A stretch of 33,545 nt of DNA from an uncultured Bacilli bacterium. Lineage in GTDB: Bacteria > Bacillota_I > Bacilli_A > RF39 > UBA660. Location of the stretch: assembly GCA_944358405.1 (NCBI GenBank), contig CALVQX010000002.1:1-33545 (forward strand). Direction: 5' to 3'. The position numbers were made by a program, and so were the translations under genes. Positions 197 to 33,545 of this stretch are shown piece after piece (the stretch's first letter is position 1; each line of letters opens with the position of its first letter). The notes under the pieces were generated by a model. The model searched no databases. It was not told the DNA's origin and saw only the letters and a list, made by a program, of their open reading frames with translations.

Positions 197-1438
197 ATGA
201 AAAAACTTTTACCAATTTTAGTTTTTTTAGCATTTCTTGCTTTTGGATATCAGATTATTGTTACTTTTTTTATTACTGAGCATCATGTTAAATATTCTTT
301 AATATCATCTGATCAACGACATTATACTATTTCTGAGAGTTATCAAAGAACAGGAAAAAGACATCATTATTCTTTTTTTATAAAATCTAAAAATAAGGCC
401 TATTCGACTGCAGTTTTTAATGATTTTAACAAACAGGATAGAATTATTACAGATATTAAGTATTATAAGAAAAATAATTTACAATGTATTTTTCCAATTT
501 ATAAAAAAAATCATACTTTTGATGTATCATGTTTGCTAGATGATCGGCAGGTTTCTTCTTTCTATTTGGAAAAAACAAAAAACGAAGATTTTTCTTTTAT
601 TACAAAAAAATTTAAAGAAGATGGTTATGATGAAATTTATTTTCACTTTGATGATGAGGCTACTAAAGAAGATAATTTGTCTATTTATTATGATTATATT
701 CCAGAAAATTATTTATTTACAATATGGAATTATCGGGGAATTTATGTCATTAATTCAGAGGGGATAGAAAACAAAGAGTTTTTAAATGAAGATCATTATG
801 AAAATACTTTATCCATTATTGCTGGAAAATATTATGTTACGATTAATACGGATGAAGAAGAGGAAAAATTAAATTATAATCAAATTATTCTTTATAATTT
901 GCAAGATGGGAGAAAGACATTAGTTGACGTTGAGTTGTCTCAGGATTCTTACTTTAATGGTACGGTTAATGGTAAAGTGTATATTACAGATCCTAGGTCA
1001 AAAGTTCAGTATGTATTAGATCCAAGTAATAAAAAAATTCAAGAAGTAAGTAATCCAAAAGAGGTTGTTAATTCAAAGTTAAAAAATGCAGGGAAAGATT
1101 TTTTTGATACTTCTCATGTCGATTCTAAAAAAGTTGCTAATAAAAAAATAACTTCTTTATATGATACTACAGATATTAAGGGAAATAATGGTGACTTTTA
1201 TTTTAAGACTAACGACGGAAAACTATATCGGATAATTCAGAATAAATATGAATATCCTATTTTATTATGTCAATTTGATGATATTAAAGAGTGGCAAGTT
1301 CATGATGATGGACTTAGTTTTATAGTTGATGATACTTTGTATTTTTATAGTGATTTGTATGGTGTTAAACCGATAGTTAAAAATTTAGAGTTTAATTATA
1401 ATTATAAAAATATTACACATTTTATTAGAGAGGAATAA
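197..1438 (+). CDS. Membrane-anchored extracytoplasmic protein of unknown function
   Basis: 413 residues. An N-terminal Lys pair and one hydrophobic segment at about residues 4-26 (LLPILVFLAFLAFGY...) look like an uncleaved signal anchor. No lipobox Cys is obvious. The rest is hydrophilic and rich in Tyr, Asn, Asp and Lys, with repeated short beta-strand-like blocks such as YVINSEG, IILYNLQDG and LYFYSDLYGV. This suggests an extracellular beta-rich, possibly propeller-like, domain. That fold is inference; I recognise no family. The SD before ATG 197 is weak (GGTGG). The gene is monocistronic, with a terminator overlapping its last codons. Confidence 0.75.
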   Translation: MKKLLPILVFLAFLAFGYQIIVTFFITEHHVKYSLISSDQRHYTISESYQRTGKRHHYSFFIKSKNKAYSTAVFNDFNKQDRIITDIKYYKKNNLQCIFPIYKKNHTFDVSCLLDDRQVSSFYLEKTKNEDFSFITKKFKEDGYDEIYFHFDDEATKEDNLSIYYDYIPENYLFTIWNYRGIYVINSEGIENKEFLNEDHYENTLSIIAGKYYVTINTDEEEEKLNYNQIILYNLQDGRKTLVDVELSQDSYFNGTVNGKVYITDPRSKVQYVLDPSNKKIQEVSNPKEVVNSKLKNAGKDFFDTSHVDSKKVANKKITSLYDTTDIKGNNGDFYFKTNDGKLYRIIQNKYEYPILLCQFDDIKEWQVHDDGLSFIVDDTLYFYSDLYGVKPIVKNLEFNYNYKNITHFIREE

Positions 1439-1452
1439 AATCCTCTTTTTTT
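1429..1452 (+). terminator. Rho-independent terminator after the 197-1438 gene
   Basis: A six-base stem AGAGGA/TCCTCT with loop ATAAAA is followed by a run of T. The stem overlaps the last codon and stop of the preceding gene. Confidence 0.75.
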
Positions 1453-1485
1453 CATATTATGAACTAAGAAAATATAAAATTATTG

Positions 1486-1514
1486 TTGAAATTTTATTTT
1501 AGCTTTGATATAAT
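1486..1514 (+). promoter_or_regulatory. Promoter of the tRNA-Cys/tRNA-Gly unit
   Basis: -35 TTGAAA (1486-1491), 17-bp spacer, -10 TATAAT (1509-1514) with an upstream TG (extended -10). Transcription would start near 1521, a few bases before the tRNA-Cys. Confidence 0.8.
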
Positions 1515-1525
1515 CTTAAGTGCAT

Positions 1526-1599
1526 GGGGCTTTAGCCAAGTGGTAAGGCGTGGGTCTGCAACACCCTGATCACCGGTTCAAATCCGGTAGGCCCCTCCA
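1526..1599 (+). tRNA. tRNA-Cys (GCA)
   Basis: 74 nt including encoded CCA (1597-1599). The acceptor GGGGCTT pairs with AGGCCCC (one G-T pair). The anticodon loop CTGCAAC gives GCA, and the T arm is CCGGTTCAAATCCGG. The discriminator is T (U73), as is typical for tRNA-Cys. It is cotranscribed with the tRNA-Gly six bases downstream. Confidence 0.95.
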
Positions 1600-1604
1600 A
1601 ATTT

Positions 1605-1679
1605 GCGGATGTAGTTTAGTGGTTAGAATACGGCCTTGCCAAGGCTGTGACGGGGATTCGATTTCCCTCATCCGCTCCA
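1605..1679 (+). tRNA. tRNA-Gly (GCC)
   Basis: 75 nt with encoded CCA. The acceptor GCGGATG pairs with CATCCGC. The anticodon loop centred on TTGCCAA gives GCC, and the T arm is GGGGATTCGATTTCCC. Two hairpin terminators follow. Confidence 0.95.
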
Positions 1680-1688
1680 TTTGAAGAC

Positions 1689-1722
1689 AACTTACGGACT
1701 AATTGAAGTTCGTAAGTTTTAA
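1689..1722 (+). terminator. Terminator after the tRNA-Gly
   Basis: A 12-bp stem (1689-1700 with 1707-1718, outer arms AACTTACG/CGTAAGTT, one G-T pair) and a six-base loop are followed by a T-rich stretch. Confidence 0.7.
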
Positions 1723-1735
1723 TTTATAAAAATAT

Positions 1736-1765
1736 CCTATATCACTCGTTGATATGGGGTTTTTT
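1736..1765 (+). terminator. Second terminator after the tRNA pair
   Basis: Stem CCTATATCA/TGATATGGG (one G-T pair), loop CTCGT, then GTTTTTT. Together with the preceding hairpin it makes a tandem stop between the tRNAs and the accessory region. Confidence 0.75.
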
Positions 1766-1770
1766 ATGTT

Positions 1771-1849
1771 GGAAAGGAGGTTTACTTAAATAAAAGTAAC
1801 CATAGAACAATTAGAATTTTTTTATGTGTTAAAGAAAAAAACAAAATAA
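1771..1849 (+). pseudogene. Possible decayed leader: strong SD but no start codon
   Basis: GGAAAGGAGG (1771-1780) is a very strong ribosome binding sequence. The reading frame behind it (1790-1849) encodes IKVTIEQLEFFYVLKKKTK and then stops. Its only possible first codon is ATA, because the codon before that is TAA. It may be the remnant of a short gene. Nothing else is seen between 1766 and the promoter at 1871. Confidence 0.2.
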
Positions 1850-14465: not shown

Positions 14466-17400
14466 ATGGCTAATTTGGTAAAAAAATTTTTAACGGATTT
14501 CGAAGATATTAATGAATATTATAATTTTTTAGTCGAGAAAACAAAAAAGTTAGAGTACGTAGGAATTACAAATGAATGGTTAATTGACAATTTTTATTTG
14601 TTAGTAGAACATAAAACAAATATCATTCATGATAAAAAACAAATTCTAAAGCAGATTAAGAATGCCGAGAGCATCTATTTTTGTATTAAAGAAATTGTAG
14701 TGGCAAATAATTATAATATTAGTTTCCAACTTTTAACTACGGAATTAAATAAGTATCAAAAAGAAACGAAGAAATATCTTTCTTATAAAGAAATCGAGTG
14801 TATTAATGAGGTATTATTATTCCTATACGTAGAGAGATTAAATGCTTTATGTAAAGAAGAGTATCGTAAATTATTAGATAAAGAAACTGTCTCTCGTATT
14901 ATTAAGGAAAGAGAAGATAAGGAAATTGAGTTAAGTAACTTTATTAAAGATGATTTTTCTATCGAGTCACATAAGGATTATGTGTTTGAACTAAATTATC
15001 AATTAAAAGAACTTGGAGCTAAAAGCAATAAGATTTTTAAAGAGCTAAATGAATTATTAGAAGAAAAACAAGTTAGCTTGAAAGAATTAATTAATGAAGA
15101 ATATCAAAGAAAGATAGATAATGATATTTTAATTTCTAATATTTTTAATGATTTAAAAGAGTTTTTTGAATTTACGGATGAAGATTTATTTGAAAAAATT
15201 TCTAAGACAGAAAAAATGCTAATGGATGATGAAGTGTATAGTATGATGACTTCTGAATCAAAAGATCTTTATCGTAGAAGATTGTTAAAATTAGCAAAGA
15301 GAAACCGTTACACAGAAGTAGAATACTTAGAAAAAATTTTACAACAGGCTGATCGTGAGGATTATCATGTTGGATTTCAGTTATTTAAACAAAGAGATCG
15401 AGGATTTTTTGTATTTCTTTATATTTTAGGAATTTTTTTAGTTACGGTGGGTGCTAGCTTCTTCTTATCTAATTATTTTCTTCCTAATCGAATCCTTGGC
15501 TTTCTTTTATTACTGATTCCAGTTAGTCAATTATTTGTTCAAATATTGAATCAAATCTTGATCTATGTTGTTCCTACAGAACCATTACCAAAATTAGATT
15601 ATTCTGAAGGAATTCCTGAAGAATCAGCAACTATGGTAGTAATTCCAACTATTGTTTCTAGCAAGGAAAAGATCAAAGATATGTTTGATACCTTGGAAAC
15701 ATTTTATCTAATTAATAAAACAGATAATTTATATTTTACATTATTAGGAGATGTAAAAGCTGGAGATCAGGAGTTTTATCCTTTTGATAAGGAAATTTCT
15801 GAATATGGAGTAGAATATGCTACTAAATTAAATCAGAAATATAAAAAAGATTTATTCTATTTTATCTATCGTAAAAGAATATGGAATGAAAAAGAAAATT
15901 CTTACCTAGGCTATGAACGCAAAAGAGGTGGATTATTACAATTTAACCAAATTTTGCTTCATCAAATGGATAAAGTTTCTGAGAAGAAGTATTTTAACGT
16001 AAATATGCTAAGTAAGCATGATTTGAAAATTAAATATGTCATTACTTTAGATACAGATACTAGATTAGTATTGAATACTGCTTTAAATTTGGTGGGTGCC
16101 ATGGCCCATCCTATGAATCATCCTGTACTTAATAAAGAAGGTACTAAAGTTATTCGTGGATACGGTTTGATGCAACCAAGAGTTAGCGTCGATATTGAAG
16201 CTACAAACAAAAGCTTATATAGTCAGATTTTTGCCGGTATTGGTGGTTTCGACACTTATAGTGCCATCGTACCAAATGTTTATCAAGACTGTTTTGCGGA
16301 AGGTAGCTTTGTTGGAAAAGGAATTTATGACTTAGAGGTTTTTCAACAGGTATTAGCCCATACTTTCCCAGATAATTTGATTTTGTCTCATGATTTATTG
16401 GAAGGAAATTATTTACGCTGTGGCTATGTTTGCGATATCGAATTAATCGATGATTTTCCATCTAAATTTTTGACAGATATTACAAGGCATCATCGTTGGG
16501 CTCGTGGAGATGTGCAAATTATTTCTTGGCTTTTAGGTCATGTTCGCAATCAAGAAGGAAAAAAAGTTAAAAATCCAATTAACTTACTAGGTAAATTCAA
16601 AATATTTGATAACCTTGTTCGCATGTTTTTACCTATTACTTTACTATTAATTTTACTTTGCGCAGTTTTATTTAGTAAGGTAAATCCATTATGGTGGGTT
16701 GGATTTGTTGTATTAGAGATTGCTGTGCCAATTATCTTCTTCTTGAGAAGTAAGATTTATCGTCAAGGCAAAGAGAAGACTACAGTATATTATAAAAATT
16801 TATTCTTTGGCGGAAAAAGTTTATTACTTCGTTCCTATATCGTATTATCAGATTTACCATTTTATACAAAACTTTATATGGATGCTTTTTTCCGAACTCT
16901 TTATCGTCTGTTTATCAGTCATAAGAATTTGTTGAATTGGATTACGGCAGAAGAAGTAGAAAAAACAGTAAAAGGGGATTTGAAAAGTTATCTTCGCAAC
17001 TTTGTTCCTAATTTTATCTTTGTTGTAGTATTTATTCTTATTGGAATTTTTACAAATAACTATATTTCATTCGTTTTAGCAATTATTTTCTTTTCTTCTC
17101 CATTTGTTTTATATAGAGTTAGCTTAGATATTGATCATAATCGCATTGAATTAAGTGATTCTGAGGTTGCTGAAGTTCGAGAGATTGCTTTTAAGACTTG
17201 GAAGTATTTTGAGGATAATTTAAAAGAAGAGTATAGTTATCTAATTCCTGATAACTATCAAGAAAATCGAGAGCAAAAATTAGATTTGAGAACATCTCCT
17301 ACTGGAATTGGTTTTTCTTTAGTTAGTGTTGTTGGTGCTTATGAGTTGGAGTTTATTACTTTGGAAAAAGCAGTTTCTTTAATTGAACATATTTTAGATA

Positions 17401-20400
17401 CAGTGAATTCTTTGGAAAAATGGCATGGACATTTATATAATTGGTATGATATTAAAACAAAAAAGGTGATGCATCCCGGTTTTGTTTCTACGATTGATTC
17501 TGGTAATTTCGTTGCTAGTGTTATCGTAGTAAGAGAATTTTTAAATGATCATGATCAAGTAGCTTTGGTAAAGTTATGTGATAGATTAATTCACAATACC
17601 AATTTTAAAAAGTTATATACCAAAAAGGAAGTATTTAGTATTGGTTATGATGAAACAGAAGGGAAACTTTCTATCTATAATTACAATAAGTTTGCTAGTG
17701 AATCTAGACTTACTAGTTATTTGGCAATTTGCCTTGGAGATGCGCCTAGTAAACATTGGTTCTGTTTAGATAAATCACTTACGACTTATAAGGGCAGAAA
17801 AGGTCTAATTTCTTGGTCTGGGACTTCTTTTGAGTATTTTATGCCATTATTATTTATGAAAAATTATCCAAATACTTTATTGGATGAGACATATCATTTC
17901 GCAAGATTCTGTCAAAAAGATTATATTGAAAGTGTTTCTCATAAATTACCATGGGGAATCAGTGAATCAGCTTATAATGAATTAGACAATGCTTTGAACT
18001 ATAAGTATCGTGCATTTTCTACTCCATATTTAAAAGCGAAAGAAGATAAAGAAAACAGAGTGGTATTATCTCCATATTCTTCTTTGATGGCAATTGAAAT
18101 GTTTCCTGAAGATGTGTATGAAAATATTCAAAAATTTGAAAAGTTGGATATGCTAGGAAAATATGGTTTCTATGAAGCTTATGATTATGATAATAAAGGT
18201 GTTGTCAAAGCATTCTTTGCTCACCATCAAGGGATGAGTTTAGCGGGCCTTGTAAATTATTTAAAACCAGATGCGATTAAGAACTATTTTCATGAGAATG
18301 TAAACATCAAAACTTTTGATATCTTGTTAAAGGAAAAAGTTCAAGTGAAAACAAGTATTGATATGAAGATGGCACGTTATAAAAAATATGACTATCAGAA
18401 AGAGACCATTGAAAATGATATTCGTGCATTTAATTATATTTCTTATATGCCTGAAGTCAGTGTGTTATCGAATAAAAAATATTGTTTGTTGATGAATGAT
18501 CGTGGAAACAGTTTTTCTAGATATCGGACTTTACAATTGAATCGGTATCGAAAAGTTACAGAACAGGATTATGGTATTTTCTTATATGTAAAAGATTTAG
18601 ATACAGATTATGTGTGGAGTAATACATATGCTCCAATGAATAAGAAACCAGATAAATATGAAGTGGTTTTTGCTGCAGATAAGATTAAATTTTTACGTAC
18701 TGATGGGAAGGTTTCTACCAAGACAGAAATTGTTGTTACTAAAAACCATCATGCAGAGATTCGTAAGATTACTTTCAAAAATGAAAGCGATCAAACCAAA
18801 TTTTTGGAACTTACGACTTATACCGAACCTATTTTATCTGAGAATATGGATGATATCAGTCATAGAGTATTTAATAACATGTTTATGTCTAGCGAATTTG
18901 ATTCTCGTACTAACTCTTTGATTATGCGTCGCAAAAGTCGAGGAGAAAGCAATGTTAATAGTTATATGTTAACTCGCTTATTAGTTCTTGATCCGATTAC
19001 AGAATACTCTTATGAAACAGAAAGAAGTCAATTTATTGGAAGAAATCATACGCCTTCTAATCCTATCGCATTAAGTCAGTCTTTGACCAATTATAGTGGG
19101 GATAATTTGGATCCAGTGATGAGTATGAGAAATCAAGTAGCAATTGAACCAAATAGTTCTACGACTGTATATCTAATCGTTGGATTCGGTAGAAGTAGAG
19201 AGCAAATTGATGACATTATTCAATCTTATTGTGATGAGGCTACGATTGAAAAAGCATTCCGTGTCTCTACCTTAATGAACATTATTAATACGAAAAATTT
19301 AAATATTACTGGGGAAGATATGCGTGTATTTAACATTATGCTAAATTACTTATATCAAACCACACGAATTTCTGTAAATGAAGAGCGAATGGATCTCCTT
19401 CGAAAGAATGCACTAGGACAGTCTGGTTTATGGAAATTTGGAGTCAGTGGAGATAGGCCAATTATTCTAGTAGAAATTAGTGATATCAGTGATCTATCTT
19501 TCGTGCTTGAAATATTAAAGGCCTTTGAATATTATAAAAACAATTCCATTTTTGTCGATATTATCATTATTAATAGTGAATCTAGTCAGTATGCTAAAAT
19601 TATTAAAAAAGAAATTGATGATGAAATGTATCGTATGTATACGTTGAATAGTTTTTATCATACCCCTGGTTCTATTACCGTAATTAATAGTGATAACATA
19701 ACCAGAGAAGAACGTAGCTTACTTAATATGGTACCAAGACTTCGTTTTGTAATTGAAAATCATATTTCATTAAAAGAAGCAGTTGAAGAATTACAAAAAA
19801 ATAATCGCATTAGTAATTATGAATATTCTCCAATGGAAGAAAATATTGTTCCTACTTTGCATGAACGGTTAACTTTTGATAATGGTTTTGGAGGTTTTAA
19901 AAATAATGGTCGAGAATATGTCATCTATAATAAAAACACACCAACACCTTGGGTAAATGTTATTGCGAATAAAAACTTTGGAACGATTATTACTAATAAT
20001 GGTTGCGGGTATACTTATGCTTATAATTCATCTGAGTTTAAAATTACTGCTTGGACAAATGATATAGTGGTAAACGATAAGTCAGAAGGATTTAAATTTA
20101 ATGGAAAAATGTTTGATCCAGAAAAGTGTACACATGGTTTTGGTTATAGTATTTTAGAAAGTGAAACGAAAGAGTTACGAAAAGAAATTACGGAATTTGT
20201 AGCTTTAGAAGATAATATCAAGTTATATTTAGTGAAACTTACCAATAAACAGAAAAAAGTTGCTAATGTAGAAATTAATTTCTGGATTAATCCAACGTTT
20301 GGTAATTTTGAAGAAAAAACTTCTAGACATATTCTAACAGAATTTATGGGTGATGATAATTACCTTAAGATGCGAAATGTCTATAGTATTAATTATGGTG

Positions 20401-22121
20401 ATGTCAATATCTTTATGTCTTCTAGTGAACCGATCGAATATGTTACTAGTGATAAAATTCTAGTAAAAAGCATCAATACAAAAGTAAAATTAAATGGGGA
20501 AGAAGAAAAATTTATTGTCTTCCAATTGGGATGTGGTTTGAAGGATTCCGAGAATGTTGCTATGATTCAAAAATATTCGAACATTACTACTGTCAAAAAA
20601 GAATTAAAAGCAGTTAAGGAATACTGGAATAAAACATTAAGCGTAATTGAAGTCAATTCTCCTGATACTAGTTTTAATTACATGCTAAATGGTTGGTATT
20701 TATATCAAACAATTTCTTCTCGTATTATGGCAAAAGCTGGTTTTTATCAAGTCAGTGGTGCTTTTGGTTATCGTGATCAATTACAAGATGCAATGAACAT
20801 TGCTATGGTAAAACCTGATTTTACAAGAGAACAGATTTTAATCAATGCTGCCCATCAATTTATGGAAGGTGATGTTCTACATTGGTGGCACGAAAAGAAT
20901 CGTTTTGGTTTGCGAAGTCGATATAAAGATGATTATTTGTGGTTAGTATATGCAACAGTTTATTATATTGAAATTACTGGAGATACTGCTATTTTAGAAG
21001 AGAGCATTCCTTATGTGTTAGGTGATAGTCTAAGCGATTATGAGCACGAAAAAGGAATCGTTTTCCAATATTCTTCTGAGAAGGAAACCTTATTAGAACA
21101 TTGTATTAAATCTTTACAATTGTCTATGAAATCCTTAGGACGTCATAAGATTCCTTTAATGGGTGGAGGAGACTGGAATGATGGAATGAATAAGGTTGGT
21201 ATCAAAGGAAAAGGAGAAAGTGTTTGGTTAGGATTTTTCTTATATTATGTCATTGATTTATTTGTTAAGATGATGAAAAAATATGACAAAAAGTTTGATG
21301 TTAGTGACTATGTTCAATTTAATGAAAAATTGAAAGAAAATTTAAATAAGAAGACCTGGGATGGTAATTATTATTTAAGAGCTTTCTTCGATAATGGAGA
21401 TAAACTAGGTAGCCATGAAAATAGTGAATGTAAAATCGATTTAATTTCACAAAGCTTTTCTATTTTAAGTGGAGTAGCTCCGAAAGAGAGAGTTCAACAA
21501 GCAATTACGGCGGTAGAAGAGAACTTAGTAGATGATGATAGTAAAATTGTAAAATTACTTACTCCACCATTTGAAAAGTCTTTAAATAATCCAGGATATA
21601 TTATGAATTATCCAAAAGGAATTCGTGAAAATGGAGGACAATATACGCATTCTGTTGCTTGGTATTTGATGGCTTTGATTAAAGCAGGATATCATGATCG
21701 AGCATATCGTTATTACCAAATGATCAATCCTATTAATCGAAGCTTAACAGAAGAAGATGTTGCACAATATCAGGTAGAACCATACGTTGTAACAGCCGAT
21801 ATCTATTCTGCAGAACATTATCCTGGACGTGGTGGTTGGACATGGTATACAGGATCTGCTGGATGGTTTTATCGAGTTGGTATTTATGATTTGTTAGGAT
21901 TAAGGAAACAAGGAAATACTTTGAGAATGATTCCTAAAATACCAATTGCATGGGACGGATATCAAGTTACCTATCATTATATGGATACTTCATATTTTAT
22001 TGAAGTAATCAAGGATTCGAAAAAAGATGGAATTGTCTTAGATCGTAAAAAACAAATTAGTAATTTTATTGAACTTGAAAATGATGGAAAAGAACATCAT
22101 GTAACCGTTTATATAAAATAG
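14466..22121 (+). CDS. Cyclic beta-1,2-glucan synthase-like protein (GT84-GH94 architecture)
   Basis: 2551 residues from ATG 14466 behind CAGGAG. Order: a helical charged N-terminal region (1-310); two hydrophobic segments (about 312-370); a GT84-type glycosyltransferase with D529-x-D531 in ITLDTDTR and RHHRW (674-678); membrane segments near 720-765 and 855-890; a glycoamylase-like middle domain (SPTGIGFSL, WGISESAYNELD, GFYEAYDY, AHHQGMSLAG); then a C-terminal GH94 phosphorylase-like domain with WWHEKN (2140-2145), DDYLW (2155-2159) and GGDWNDGMN containing D2236. This matches NdvB/ChvB/Cgs proteins (about 2800 residues), which make UDP-glucose-dependent cyclic beta-1,2-glucan. The catalytic motifs are intact. 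No NdvA-type ABC exporter is in the window. A linear product is possible. Confidence 0.92.
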   Translation: MANLVKKFLTDFEDINEYYNFLVEKTKKLEYVGITNEWLIDNFYLLVEHKTNIIHDKKQILKQIKNAESIYFCIKEIVVANNYNISFQLLTTELNKYQKETKKYLSYKEIECINEVLLFLYVERLNALCKEEYRKLLDKETVSRIIKEREDKEIELSNFIKDDFSIESHKDYVFELNYQLKELGAKSNKIFKELNELLEEKQVSLKELINEEYQRKIDNDILISNIFNDLKEFFEFTDEDLFEKISKTEKMLMDDEVYSMMTSESKDLYRRRLLKLAKRNRYTEVEYLEKILQQADREDYHVGFQLFKQRDRGFFVFLYILGIFLVTVGASFFLSNYFLPNRILGFLLLLIPVSQLFVQILNQILIYVVPTEPLPKLDYSEGIPEESATMVVIPTIVSSKEKIKDMFDTLETFYLINKTDNLYFTLLGDVKAGDQEFYPFDKEISEYGVEYATKLNQKYKKDLFYFIYRKRIWNEKENSYLGYERKRGGLLQFNQILLHQMDKVSEKKYFNVNMLSKHDLKIKYVITLDTDTRLVLNTALNLVGAMAHPMNHPVLNKEGTKVIRGYGLMQPRVSVDIEATNKSLYSQIFAGIGGFDTYSAIVPNVYQDCFAEGSFVGKGIYDLEVFQQVLAHTFPDNLILSHDLLEGNYLRCGYVCDIELIDDFPSKFLTDITRHHRWARGDVQIISWLLGHVRNQEGKKVKNPINLLGKFKIFDNLVRMFLPITLLLILLCAVLFSKVNPLWWVGFVVLEIAVPIIFFLRSKIYRQGKEKTTVYYKNLFFGGKSLLLRSYIVLSDLPFYTKLYMDAFFRTLYRLFISHKNLLNWITAEEVEKTVKGDLKSYLRNFVPNFIFVVVFILIGIFTNNYISFVLAIIFFSSPFVLYRVSLDIDHNRIELSDSEVAEVREIAFKTWKYFEDNLKEEYSYLIPDNYQENREQKLDLRTSPTGIGFSLVSVVGAYELEFITLEKAVSLIEHILDTVNSLEKWHGHLYNWYDIKTKKVMHPGFVSTIDSGNFVASVIVVREFLNDHDQVALVKLCDRLIHNTNFKKLYTKKEVFSIGYDETEGKLSIYNYNKFASESRLTSYLAICLGDAPSKHWFCLDKSLTTYKGRKGLISWSGTSFEYFMPLLFMKNYPNTLLDETYHFARFCQKDYIESVSHKLPWGISESAYNELDNALNYKYRAFSTPYLKAKEDKENRVVLSPYSSLMAIEMFPEDVYENIQKFEKLDMLGKYGFYEAYDYDNKGVVKAFFAHHQGMSLAGLVNYLKPDAIKNYFHENVNIKTFDILLKEKVQVKTSIDMKMARYKKYDYQKETIENDIRAFNYISYMPEVSVLSNKKYCLLMNDRGNSFSRYRTLQLNRYRKVTEQDYGIFLYVKDLDTDYVWSNTYAPMNKKPDKYEVVFAADKIKFLRTDGKVSTKTEIVVTKNHHAEIRKITFKNESDQTKFLELTTYTEPILSENMDDISHRVFNNMFMSSEFDSRTNSLIMRRKSRGESNVNSYMLTRLLVLDPITEYSYETERSQFIGRNHTPSNPIALSQSLTNYSGDNLDPVMSMRNQVAIEPNSSTTVYLIVGFGRSREQIDDIIQSYCDEATIEKAFRVSTLMNIINTKNLNITGEDMRVFNIMLNYLYQTTRISVNEERMDLLRKNALGQSGLWKFGVSGDRPIILVEISDISDLSFVLEILKAFEYYKNNSIFVDIIIINSESSQYAKIIKKEIDDEMYRMYTLNSFYHTPGSITVINSDNITREERSLLNMVPRLRFVIENHISLKEAVEELQKNNRISNYEYSPMEENIVPTLHERLTFDNGFGGFKNNGREYVIYNKNTPTPWVNVIANKNFGTIITNNGCGYTYAYNSSEFKITAWTNDIVVNDKSEGFKFNGKMFDPEKCTHGFGYSILESETKELRKEITEFVALEDNIKLYLVKLTNKQKKVANVEINFWINPTFGNFEEKTSRHILTEFMGDDNYLKMRNVYSINYGDVNIFMSSSEPIEYVTSDKILVKSINTKVKLNGEEEKFIVFQLGCGLKDSENVAMIQKYSNITTVKKELKAVKEYWNKTLSVIEVNSPDTSFNYMLNGWYLYQTISSRIMAKAGFYQVSGAFGYRDQLQDAMNIAMVKPDFTREQILINAAHQFMEGDVLHWWHEKNRFGLRSRYKDDYLWLVYATVYYIEITGDTAILEESIPYVLGDSLSDYEHEKGIVFQYSSEKETLLEHCIKSLQLSMKSLGRHKIPLMGGGDWNDGMNKVGIKGKGESVWLGFFLYYVIDLFVKMMKKYDKKFDVSDYVQFNEKLKENLNKKTWDGNYYLRAFFDNGDKLGSHENSECKIDLISQSFSILSGVAPKERVQQAITAVEENLVDDDSKIVKLLTPPFEKSLNNPGYIMNYPKGIRENGGQYTHSVAWYLMALIKAGYHDRAYRYYQMINPINRSLTEEDVAQYQVEPYVVTADIYSAEHYPGRGGWTWYTGSAGWFYRVGIYDLLGLRKQGNTLRMIPKIPIAWDGYQVTYHYMDTSYFIEVIKDSKKDGIVLDRKKQISNFIELENDGKEHHVTVYIK

Positions 22122-28897: not shown

Positions 28898-31033
28898 ATG
28901 ATGACGTTAGAAGACTATGCATTGGATGTTGGAAAAACTTTAGATGAAGTTGAAGCTTTATGTGATAAAATTGGAATTGAATATGTAGATGGAACTACGA
29001 AACTAAGCGAGACGGATATTATACTATTGGATAATGAAATGCAGGATGAAGAAGACTATATTACTGGCGATGTAGAAGATTTGGAAGAAAAATTATTGGA
29101 TGAAGAAGTTACTGATAAAGCGGAAGAGTTAGCGATGAATACCCGCTTCGATCTTGATAATCAACAAAGCTTTGAGAGGGTAAAAAGTAAACCTGTAAAG
29201 AAGAATGATAATAAAAAGGATTTCTTAAAAGAGAGAAAGAAAATTTATAAGCATCGTGAAAAATTACAAAGTAATGAAGCGGTGCCAGATGAAAACGTCA
29301 TTTTGTATAAAGAAGGTATGAGTGTTTCTGATTTGGCAGATGTATTGGAGGTTCCAGCAGTTGAGGTTGTAAAAAAATTAATGGGCCTTGGTACGATGGC
29401 TTCTGTAAACCAAGCCATTGATTATGATAGTGCAGAGGTAGTTGCATCTTTATATGATAAGGTATTAAAGAAAGAAGAAGCAGCTGATATTTCTAATTTT
29501 GAGAATTTAGAAATTGAAGATAAAGAAGAGGATTTGGTTGCACGTCCACCAGTAGTTACTATTATGGGACATGTAGATCATGGAAAAACGACTCTTTTGG
29601 ATGCTATACGTAAGACGAATGTAGCATCATCAGAAGCTGGGGGAATTACTCAAGCAATAGGAGCATATTCTGTTTCTTGTAATGGCAAGAAAATTACTTT
29701 TATTGATACTCCAGGACATGCTGCTTTTACAGAGATGAGGGCGCGTGGAGCTTCTATTACAGATATTGTAATTATTATCGTAGCTGCAGATGATGGCGTG
29801 ATGCCACAAACAAAAGAAGCAATTGATCATGCAAAAGCTGCGAAAGTTCCAATTATTGTTGCTATCAATAAAATTGATAAACCGGAAGCAAATATAGACC
29901 GAGTTATGACGGGGTTAGTAGAGAATGGACTTACTCCAGAAGAATGGGGTGGAGATATTCTTGTCAATAAGATTTCAGCTGTTACTGGAGAGGGAATCAA
30001 TGAATTGTTAGAAAATATTTTATTAGTAGCAGAAATGCAAGAGTATAAAGCAAACCCATCCCGTTATGCCACTGGTGCTGTCATTGAATCGAAGAAAGAT
30101 AGCAAAGTTGGATCAGTAGCTACTTTGTTAATTCAAAATGGTACGCTACGTTTGGGAGATCCTATTGTTGTTGGTACTACGTATGGTAAGGTTCGTACTT
30201 TAAAAAATGATCTTGGGCAAAACATCGTTGAGGCTGGTCCTTCTACGCCTGTAGAGGTTACTGGTATTTCTGATGTACCTAGTGCAGGAGATAAGTTCAT
30301 GGCATTTGAATCGGAAAAGCAGGCTAGACAGATTGCAGAAGAGAGAAGATTACGTAACAAGACGCAAGATTCTAATTTTAGTGGTATGAGTCTAGAAGAT
30401 TTATTTGGTAGAATTCAAGAAGGAATTAAAGAGATTAATGTCGTATTAAAAGCAGATGTGAATGGTTCTTTAGAGGCAGTTAAGAATTCCTTGGAAAAAA
30501 TAGACGTTGAAGGAGTTAAAATTCATGTGATTCGTGCTGCAGTTGGTTCTATTACAGAAAGTGATGTTGTTTTAGCAACAGCATCTGATGCGATGATTAT
30601 TGGATTTAATGTCCGGGCTAATGCCAAAGCAGTAGATGAAGCCAAACAATATGGTGTATCTATTCAAACTTATGATATTATTTATAAAGTTGTAGAAGAT
30701 ATGGAAGCAGCAATGAAAGGAATGCTAGATCCCGAATACGAAGAAAAAGTCATGGGAACATTAGAAGTTCGTCAAATCTTTAAGTTTTCTAAAATTGGTC
30801 TAATTGCTGGTTGTCATGTTACTGATGGTATTGTAAAGAATAATCAGAAAGCTCGTTTAATTCGCGATGATGTAATTATTTATAATGGATCAGTCAAATC
30901 TTTACAACATGAAAAAGATCAGGTAAAAGAAGTAAAAAAAGGGATGGATTGTGGTATCACTTTAGAGAACTGTCAAGACTATAAAGAGGGAGATATCATT
31001 GAAGTCTATGAATTGGTAGAAATACAGCGATAA
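28898..31033 (+). CDS. infB: Translation initiation factor IF-2
   Basis: 711 residues, ATG 28898 behind GAGGTG, 12 bp after ylxR. The N-terminal 190 residues are charged and helical and include an IF2_N-like module ([25 protein letters not shown]). The GTPase has G1 GHVDHGKTT (224-232), G2 [11 protein letters not shown]3 DTPGHAAF, G4 NKID and G5 SAVTG. Domains II to IV follow, to YELVEIQR. It delivers fMet-tRNA to the 30S P site. The N-terminal region is short, as in low-GC Gram-positives. A terminator follows, so rbfA is not in this operon. Confidence 0.97.
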
Positions 31034-31093
31034 GAACTAGTTATTAGAACTTTGGTTCTTTTTCTTTTTAGAAGTTGTAAAACTTCTTTTTTT
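31033..31093 (+). terminator. Two hairpins ending the infB operon
   Basis: AGAAC-TTTG-GTTCT (31046-31058) followed by TTTTTCTTTTT, then AGAAGTT-GTAA-AACTTCT (31070-31087) followed by TTTTTTTG. Both are intrinsic-terminator-like and close the operon right after infB. Confidence 0.8.
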
Positions 31094-31112
31094 GTCTGAA
31101 GGAGGGGGAGTT

Positions 31113-31541
31113 ATGAAGGAGACAATGGCAGAAGAAATGACTGTTTCTGTTGTTAGAGAAGAACTAATCAATGATAATGCTTTATTAAGATTTGTCTATG
31201 ATAATCCTAGAGATAAAGAGAATTTTTGTTGTACTATTTATGTAAGATATATTCAAGATAAGGCAATTCATGAAACAAAGATAGGTTGTATTACTTTAGT
31301 AGGTTCTTTGGAGCAACAACAAGATGATGGGATGTGTATTTATGGCAGTAACAATTCTTTATTAGAATATAATCAAAAAGGAATTGCTTATTTTTCTTAT
31401 TATGAGGATGGCTCCTTATTTTATTCTCGTGTTTTTGATTTTAGAAATTATCGTTTTGTAGATAAAGAATATGAAATGGGAATTTATCAAAGACTTTTTT
31501 CTTCTAGGCAAATTCCAGCAGTACAGAAAAGAAAAATTTAG
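31113..31541 (+). CDS. Hypothetical protein, 142 aa
   Basis: ATG 31113 is chosen behind GAAGGAGGGGGAG; a start at 31092 would lie in the terminator. The product is soluble and mildly acidic with beta-strand pattern and many Tyr/Phe (CCTIYVRYIQDK, GIAYFSYYEDGSLFYSRVF). There is no signal peptide, and the C-terminus is basic. No family is recognised. It converges on the tandem-HTH gene. Confidence 0.7.
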   Translation: MKETMAEEMTVSVVREELINDNALLRFVYDNPRDKENFCCTIYVRYIQDKAIHETKIGCITLVGSLEQQQDDGMCIYGSNNSLLEYNQKGIAYFSYYEDGSLFYSRVFDFRNYRFVDKEYEMGIYQRLFSSRQIPAVQKRKI

Positions 31542-31548
31542 ACATTTT

Positions 31549-31577
31549 AAAGGAATGAGTTTATCATTCCTTTTTAT
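31549..31577. terminator. Shared terminator between convergent genes
   Basis: Perfect 10-bp stem AAAGGAATGA/TCATTCCTTT with loop GTTTA, followed by TT on the plus strand. The TGA stop of the minus-strand tandem-HTH gene forms part of the right arm. Confidence 0.7.
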
Positions 31578-33545
31578 ATGTTTTATTATTAGTTGTAGAC
31601 GTTGTCTTTTCAAAATTTTCAATTAATGTATTTACGGATTCTACATTTTCTTGGAACATATCGGCAAGTTCTTCATTTTTAAATGGTATTTGTTCTAAAA
31701 GTTCTAGATGAAGTGCTAACATTATTTTTTGTTTTGAATTACAAGTTTGTAAAAAGGCTTGATTGTCTAATTCTTCTAACTTTTGTAATCCTTGCTGAAG
31801 ATGTGCTTTGATATTTTTTTGTCTAGTGGTTAGTTTTTCTTGATCTTGTATTGTCTTTGGATGATTCTTTATCTTTTTACTATCAATTTGATGTATGATT
31901 GGAGTAAGATATGGTGTAAGTTGCATGTTTTTAATTGTTTCTTTATTTTTTTGTTTGATGTCTTCTAACAAAGTAGGATATTCTGTTAAAATTTGTTCTT
32001 TATAACTTTCTTCTGCTTCTAATTTTTCTAATATTTTTTTCTTATGGTAATTTATATTGGTTATTTTTAATTTTCCAGTAATTTCTTTTTGCCTAAGGTA
32101 TAAATCATTTTCTTTTTGAAATAATAATTTTAGAAGTTCAATATCAGTTTGAATTTTCTTTTTCTTTTTTTCTTGCTGTTTTTCTTTTATAGTTGAGATC
32201 TTTTTTTGTTGTTTTGTTTTTGAACTTAGAATTCTTTTTTCTTCCATATCTTCTGATAGGGTTGGATAATGTTGTAATATTTGTTGTTTATAAGGTTCAT
32301 CCGTTTGTAATTTATTTAATATTTTTTTCTTTTGTGTGCTTATATTTGATTGGGTGGTTGCTAATTTTTGGGCAATTTCATTTTGCGTAAGATAGTTTTC
32401 TTCTTGTTTTTCAAATAGTAATTTTAATATTTTGATATCGTTTTGAATATTTTTTTCTCCAAGTATTTTTGTTTTGATATCTTCTAATAGAGTAGGATAG
32501 TATTCTAATATTTGTTGTTTATAAGTTTCATCTGTTTGTAGTTTATTTAGTATTTCTTTCTTCTTGTGACCTAGACTTTTTTCTTTGATTGCTAATTCAT
32601 GGGCGATCTTTTTTTGAGTAAAATAAGTTCCTTCTTGTTTTTCAAATAGTAATTTTAATATTTTGATATCGTTTTGAATATTTTTTTCTCTAAGTATTTT
32701 TGTTTTGCTTTTTGTTTCTATATCTTCTAGTAAGGTTGGATAATAGTTTAATATTTGTTGTTTATAAGTTTCATTTGTTTGTAGTTTATTTAATATTTTT
32801 TTCTTTTGGTAGCTTATTTTTGCTTGGCTGATTACTAATTTTTGGGCAATTTCATTTTGCGTAAGGTAGTTTTCTTCCTGTTTTTCAAATAGTAATTTTA
32901 AGAGTTTTATGTCTTCTTGAATATTTCCATTTTTTCTCTGAGGTGTTTTTGTGTTGTTTTTTGCTTCTATATCTTCTAGGAGAGTAGGATAATATTTTAG
33001 TATTTGTTGTTTATAAGTTTCATCTGTTTGTAATTTGTTTAGTATTCTTTTCTTTTGAACACTTATTCTTGGTTGGGTAATTGCTAATTTTTGGGCAATT
33101 TCATTTTGCGTAAGGTAGTTTTCTTCCTGTTTTTCGAATAGTAATTTTAAGATTTTAATATCTTTTTCCATACTTTTTTCTTTTTGAGGTATGACTAAAT
33201 TTTTTTCTTCTATTTGAGATAATGTGGTTTTGGTTTGTTTTTTTATTTCCATATCTTCTAGGAGAGTAGGATAATATTTTAGTATTTGTTGTTTATAGGT
33301 TTCATCTGTTTGTAGTTTATTTAGTATTTTTTTCTTTTGCGTGCTTATACTTGATGGGCTGATTGCTAATTTTTGGGCAATTTCATTTTGTGTAAGGTAG
33401 TTTTCTTCCTGTTTTTCGAATAGTAATTTTAAGAGTTTTATGTCTTCTTGAATATTTCTTCCTTTTTCTTTTATTTGAGATAATTTGATTTGCTTTTTTA
33501 TTTCCATATCTTCTAGGAGAGTAGGATAATAATTTAGTATTTGTT
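31564..33545 (-). CDS. Tandem helix-turn-helix repeat protein (5' end outside the window)
   Basis: The frame is open from the window edge to TGA at 31566-31564, over 659 codons. The first ATG (33507) is inside a repeat, because the 12 codons before it spell the end of another unit (QILNYYPTLLED), so the true start lies beyond the window. There are six full units (about 77-96 residues) plus that partial one. Each has a DIKxLKLLFEKQ helix, an LTQNEIAQKL-x-I-x5-IS helix-turn-helix, KKILNKLQTDE, and YKQQIL-x2-YPTLLED. Units are joined by Lys-rich linkers. The HTH resembles sigma-70 region 4. A 131-residue tail ends with another HTH-like stretch (NEELADMFQENVESV). No signal peptide. Probably multivalent DNA or RNA binding; function unknown. 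Confidence 0.85.
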   Translation of the reverse strand, partial: QILNYYPTLLEDMEIKKQIKLSQIKEKGRNIQEDIKLLKLLFEKQEENYLTQNEIAQKLAISPSSISTQKKKILNKLQTDETYKQQILKYYPTLLEDMEIKKQTKTTLSQIEEKNLVIPQKEKSMEKDIKILKLLFEKQEENYLTQNEIAQKLAITQPRISVQKKRILNKLQTDETYKQQILKYYPTLLEDIEAKNNTKTPQRKNGNIQEDIKLLKLLFEKQEENYLTQNEIAQKLVISQAKISYQKKKILNKLQTNETYKQQILNYYPTLLEDIETKSKTKILREKNIQNDIKILKLLFEKQEGTYFTQKKIAHELAIKEKSLGHKKKEILNKLQTDETYKQQILEYYPTLLEDIKTKILGEKNIQNDIKILKLLFEKQEENYLTQNEIAQKLATTQSNISTQKKKILNKLQTDEPYKQQILQHYPTLSEDMEEKRILSSKTKQQKKISTIKEKQQEKKKKKIQTDIELLKLLFQKENDLYLRQKEITGKLKITNINYHKKKILEKLEAEESYKEQILTEYPTLLEDIKQKNKETIKNMQLTPYLTPIIHQIDSKKIKNHPKTIQDQEKLTTRQKNIKAHLQQGLQKLEELDNQAFLQTCNSKQKIMLALHLELLEQIPFKNEELADMFQENVESVNTLIENFEKTTSTTNNKTYKKE
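31960..33545 (-). repeat. Tandem ~230-290-bp coding repeats of the HTH unit
   Basis: In transcription order: the end of one unit (33545-33508), then units at 33507-33253, 33252-32971, 32970-32722, 32721-32479, 32478-32248 and 32247-31960. Units 1, 2, 3 and 5 are nearly identical through FEKQEENYLTQNEIAQKL, also at the DNA level. Unit 4 keeps the frame but has a changed HTH (TYFTQKKIAHELAIKEKSL). Unit 6 is the most diverged, with a long Lys-rich linker. The pattern suggests recent expansion by unequal recombination from the upstream end, with the oldest unit nearest the C-terminus. Confidence 0.9.

Follow-up and report, generated by a model that had tools for sequence, protein, structure and literature searches.

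A tandem array of sigma region 4-like helix–turn–helix units in a protein of an uncultured Bacilli bacterium

A sigma factor or a helix–turn–helix (HTH) regulator normally has a single DNA-reading domain or a pair of them, and the question raised by the present locus is what might be done by a protein in which such a domain is repeated many times over. The window, that is, the whole stretch of 33,545 bases that was analysed, is contig C2 of the genome that we call G000, and a minus-strand frame of 659 codons runs off its end. A reading of this frame from its sequence, made before any database search, had described at least 659 codons with at least six repeated HTH units ending in a conserved YPTLLED; we found six complete units, each an HTH followed by a tail that reads YPTL[L/S]ED, along with the last part of one more and, at the C-terminus, a further HTH domain (Table 1). 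That reading was limited to the array, for which it put forward periodic DNA sites, nucleoid organisation or decoy or antisigma-like behaviour as possible roles; it did not give the strand, nor did it touch on the sigma-2-like N-terminal domain, the conserved sigma-4-like domain at the C-terminus, the infB/rbfA neighbourhood or the variability of the recognition helix described below. Tandem Repeats Finder reported a 249-bp period in the frame, with 3.9 copies and a 79% match. The description of the units as near-identical holds for most of them but not for units 6 and 8, which have diverged. In the open-licence literature that we searched, we found no account of proteins with region 4 or HTH domains arrayed in tandem or in multiple copies, and the architecture is a new one, built from known domains.

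In order to obtain the complete gene, the start of which and further units of which had been expected to lie outside the window, the sequence was extended upstream through a second contig, C43, the first 102 bases of which are exactly the final ones of C2. The joined frame encodes a protein of 1069 residues and starts at an ATG codon with GGAAGTGG before it. The gene lies between infB, with the small orf149, and rbfA, on the strand opposite to both; the join is supported by the finding that infB and rbfA adjoin in most genomes of the host's family. Because the two contigs meet within the repeat, the eight array units counted are a minimum for this genome. An assembly artefact, which would have accounted for the repeats trivially, was rejected in view of the exact overlap, the infB–rbfA neighbourhood and the recurrence of the gene elsewhere; independent genomes have the same gene beside rbfA with different repeat sequences, which makes such an artefact unlikely. 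Between orf149 and the array gene there is a terminator-like inverted repeat (one found, against 0.1 expected in shuffled sequence), and a promoter scan upstream of the array gene gave no pattern match on the gene's own strand.

Table 1. Features of the array gene and its surroundings. Positions are those of the window unless another contig or locus is named.
Feature	Position	Strand	Residues	Recognition helix	Remarks
infB	28898..31033	+			Conserved neighbour on one side
orf149	31092..31541	+			Small protein without assigned function, between infB and the array gene; outside the array
Terminator-like inverted repeat	31549..31573	.			Between orf149 and the array gene; 10 pairs, T-rich tail on the + strand
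Array gene, 3' part	31564..33543	-	411-1069 + stop		ORF and C2/C43 join
C-terminal HTH domain	31567..31743	-	1011-1069		Family-conserved; sigma region 4 match
Array unit 8	31960..32145	-	877-938		Diverged, two residues shorter
Array unit 7	32248..32439	-	779-842	QSNISTQKKK	
Array unit 6	32479..32670	-	702-765	EKSLGHKKKE	Diverged
Array unit 5	32722..32913	-	621-684	QAKISYQKKK	
Array unit 4	32971..33162	-	538-601	QPRISVQKKR	
Array unit 3	33253..33444	-	444-507	PSSISTQKKK	
Array unit 2	33508..33543	-			End only (QILNYYPTLLED)
Array gene, 5' part	contig C43, L006:103-1330	-			C2/C43 join
rbfA	L006 about 1438-1800				Conserved neighbour on other side

The full protein contains 11 HTH domains, eight of them array units. 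From the N-terminus, a four-helix domain of ~75 residues is followed by two diverged HTH domains, the eight array units and the C-terminal HTH domain, which in most relatives has the motif CT..QK..LALRLGY. The array units are ~64 residues each, the Lys-rich linkers between them are 13 to 34 residues long, and lysine makes up 183 of the 1069 residues of the protein.

The proposal that the units are of the sigma-70 region 4 type was supported by several kinds of comparison. Against Pfam Sigma70_r4 the array scored an E of 3e-21 and 75 bits (cut-off 24), with four stretches passing alone; the units also matched the NCBIfam sigma models, the sigma70-ECF superfamily above its cut-off, and, when a 442-residue model of the N-terminal half of the protein was searched with Foldseek, the best 50 PDB matches were all sigma factors or sigma-containing complexes (best E 0.02). 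hhalign placed the C-terminal domain in register on sigma region 4, with an E of 5.6e-7 and a probability of 92%, and a region 4 HTH is therefore found both in the array, by Pfam, and in the C-terminal domain, by hhalign. Secondary Pfam matches of the units were to GerE/LuxR, MarR_2 and HTH_24, with which they have the tri-helical HTH core in common; members of these families, however, carry one or two HTH domains and a sensor or dimerisation part, neither of which is seen in the array protein.

The N-terminal domain proved less easy to place. Its predicted model is confident (pLDDT 90, pTM 0.76), and nearly all of its best 50 Foldseek matches were sigma domains or sigma-containing complexes, at a TM of about 0.5 and E values of 0.2–5, none individually significant. 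A profile of the domain, searched against the PDB, gave as its top two matches sigma factors over region 2 (SigI6, E 0.015, and the N-terminal domain of SigE, E 0.14), and its match to the sigma region 2 profile was weak (hhalign probability 16%, E 0.0017). Pfam Sigma70_r2, which found the five ordinary sigma factors (region 2 genes) of the same genome, gave no match at the array gene up to E 10, and was likewise absent from the Pfam matches of 19 N-terminal domains. The domain thus appears, weakly but consistently in profile and model comparisons, to be sigma-2-like while falling short of a sigma region 2 proper, and, because a region 2 detectable in sequence, as expected of the sigma-70 family, was not found, the protein cannot be filed as a sigma factor. 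Compared with the sigma-70 factors (SigE/SigK/SigI and ECF; sigma2–sigma4), it shares region-4-type HTH units and the C-terminal domain, and its four-helix domain appears to resemble region 2 most by fold and, weakly, by profile; it differs in that sigma-70 factors have one region 4 HTH, whereas proteins of the array family have about 5 to 19 HTH domains and an N-terminal domain that the Pfam model of region 2 fails to detect.

The resemblance of both ends to the two core-binding sigma domains raises the alternative of a polymerase or sigma decoy, in which the sigma-2-like head and sigma-4-like units would lower transcription in an anti-sigma-like manner, by occupying core RNA polymerase or the beta flap in competition with sigma. 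Region 4 of sigma factors binds the beta flap (PMC4598750), and the five ordinary sigma factors of this genome are there to be competed with. We nevertheless consider a decoy very unlikely: one flap needs one region 4 rather than eight, and competition gives no reason for the array to have diversified at the residues predicted to contact DNA, as described below.

When between 291 and 386 genomes from the host's family or order were searched with profiles, 18 of them, in five genera of one Bacilli family (f1), proved to contain long relatives. A class-wide search of 346 genomes gave, outside that family, just short weak matches (best E 2.5e-5), and a scan of named-record contigs gave one contig (L130, 'uncultured Bacilli bacterium') when the G196 protein was the query and no matches when the window protein was. 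In all but one of the 18 genomes a copy lies beside rbfA, on the other strand; the exception is G365, where it is near infB, and the L130 copy adjoins alpha/beta hydrolase, murF and ddl genes. Two tandem array genes are present in G343 (L121:7314-12427), the second with nearly identical units that have one common recognition-helix sequence, while G342 has a copy at the locus containing a second set of C-terminal features and another copy elsewhere. In most genomes of the family infB and rbfA are found without the array gene. On an infB tree of 41 genomes, its presence needs 4 changes, against 11.4 with shuffled labels; this fits an old gene lost several times, and transfers are also possible. 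A phage, plasmid or defence origin received no support, in that tblastn with the G017 homolog found no match among 50,697 phage records, PHROGs and viral structures gave just weak general HTH or sigma matches, and PADLOC defence models matched weakly over HTH stretches alone. Separately, a contig-start fragment in G073 (L046:1-531) contains short VANNSDKKVGNV-like repeats and, after them, a domain similar to the C-terminal domain of the array family.

The number of HTH domains per protein ranges across the family from about 5 to 19, so the variation in copy number anticipated from the closeness of the repeats is seen between species. The repeats have expanded separately in several genera: the units of G000 are 79% identical on average among themselves, but their identity to units from other genera never exceeds 45%, and those of the second G343 copy are 75% identical within the protein as against 39% to other genera. 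G196 and L130 share one repeat type (0.63–0.74 within, up to 0.70 between). Such free variation in unit number, the high lysine content and the dispensability of the gene, absent as it is from most genomes of the family, would all be in keeping with a nucleoid-associated or architectural protein, in which numerous HTH units, each of low specificity and joined by Lys-rich linkers, would coat or bridge AT-rich DNA, its exact sequence being immaterial.

Whether sequence matters can be approached through the positions at which the units differ. The structure prediction places the second HTH helix at unit columns 19–26 and the start of the recognition helix at column 30 (model numbering being off by one residue); contact positions were predicted from this helix and from the alignment with sigma-70 region 4. 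The most variable columns of the G000 array include 31, 32 and 35, which we take to align with Glu585, Arg586 and Gln589 of Escherichia coli sigma-70 region 4.2, presumably residues that contact DNA. Ten recognition-helix columns, picked after the G000 and G196 profiles had been seen, were compared with the other columns, L130 and G365 being tested after that choice; with unit pairs pooled that are not independent, the differences between units were 0.44 versus 0.16 in G000 (p 0.002), 0.62 versus 0.33 in G196 (p 0.0008) and 0.73 versus 0.17 in L130 (p 0.0001, from three usable units alone), and the excess in G365 was borderline and not significant (p 0.058). Variation in the G000, G196 and L130 arrays is therefore concentrated at the residues predicted to contact bases. 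The pN/pS ratios in these three best arrays were 0.87, 1.00 and 1.09 in the recognition helix, compared with 0.18, 0.41 and 0.43 elsewhere, and silent divergence is present in both parts of the unit, so that recent copying alone does not account for the conserved scaffold. In the C-terminal domain, compared across the family, the recognition-helix columns and the remaining columns are equally conserved (0.393 versus 0.396). A protein that coats DNA needs no such pattern of a constrained scaffold (pN/pS 0.18–0.43) with contact positions that vary by unit, nor does its role sit easily with the retention of sigma-like ends, and we regard the architectural explanation as unlikely.

A pN/pS value near 1 could reflect relaxed constraint as well as selection for new specificity, and the same observations must therefore be weighed against neutral repeat turnover, according to which an unstable tandem repeat in an ancestral sigma-like or HTH regulator has been homogenised by gene conversion and the recognition helix varies because it is not used. 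That the ratio is about 1 and not clearly above it, that the family is patchy, with the gene probably lost several times, and that some units are diverged or shortened would all fit such turnover. An unused helix, however, should drift between orthologs as well as between units, and this is not what was found: close orthologs keep their recognition helices (0/48 differences between G077 and G424, 3/48 between G077 and G476), and in distant ones, at about 50% divergence, the bias is absent or small (1.0–1.25-fold). The scaffold is conserved, as are the hydrophobic helix positions within the recognition helix itself, and frames remain open over 1000–1600 codons in many genomes. On this evidence we think neutral turnover an improbable explanation of the array.

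Our preferred reading, which we put forward tentatively as one that could well be correct, is that the protein is a regulator derived from a sigma factor, with an array that reads a long composite DNA site and ends that plausibly dock on polymerase. A sigma-2-like head and a sigma-4-like tail are retained in every intact member, and the sigma-4-like HTH array between them would gain and lose units by tandem duplication. Each unit would use its own recognition helix to touch a few base pairs of the major groove, and with the units joined by flexible Lys-rich linkers the whole array would read a long composite site; after duplication, the recognition helices would diverge between units while the scaffold was held constant. 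The differences between recognition helices from unit to unit, as predicted from sequence, fit composite-site recognition better than recognition of one repeated site, and would fit a simple decoy poorly. Polymerase docking is the weaker, if plausible, part of this reading: RNA polymerase is probably where the head and tail attach (at the beta-prime clamp and the beta flap), which would make the protein a sigma-like factor or a polymerase-bound regulator, or they may be relics. Counting against this reading, the sequences examined yielded neither a target site nor a periodic site nor a co-varying partner, the second G343 copy has units with identical recognition helices, and the excess in G365 is not significant; the region upstream of the gene, searched for repeats as possible binding sites, contained no direct repeats and one weak AT-rich inverted pair.

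Since the copies differ most at the residues predicted to touch DNA, the array may be a natural modular DNA-recognition array. TAL effectors consist of tandem near-identical repeats that differ at base-contacting positions, and the array likewise consists of tandem near-identical repeats differing at positions predicted to contact bases. By way of difference, the TAL repeat is a superhelical one of 34 residues, whereas that of the array is a whole HTH of ~64 residues with linkers; there is no sequence relation between them. It is conceivable, if rather doubtful, that sigma region 4 units have here given rise to a natural modular recognition system, its length and helices rewired by tandem duplication and selection to provide each species with a polymerase-linked reader of a long DNA address. 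Sigma-like ends combined with a region 4 HTH multiplied to about 19 domains, expanded separately in related genera and differing mainly at the predicted contact residues, would show how a modular DNA-binding array can arise from a transcription factor, and the family would provide an HTH-based counterpart to the TAL effectors, its many natural arrays being material in which to look for a recognition code.

Some observations on other genes were made in passing. In G125, a protein of 803 residues (L043:6996-9404) combines a complete RpoD-like sigma part with an extension at its C-terminus that resembles the C-terminal domain of the array proteins, of which it is a possible relative or ancestor type. 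The 1.3-Mb genome of the window encodes, on contig C56 (L016), a SigE-like sigma factor of 230 residues and, next to it, a membrane protein with the look of SpoIIGA. The product of orf149 and that of a 138-residue ORF near pnp (L006:4220-4636) appear by eye to form one small family, and G073 has an orf149 match at the same infB–rbfA position. Elsewhere in the window, a single ORF of 2551 residues (14466-22121) has the look of a large glycosyltransferase/phosphorylase-type protein.
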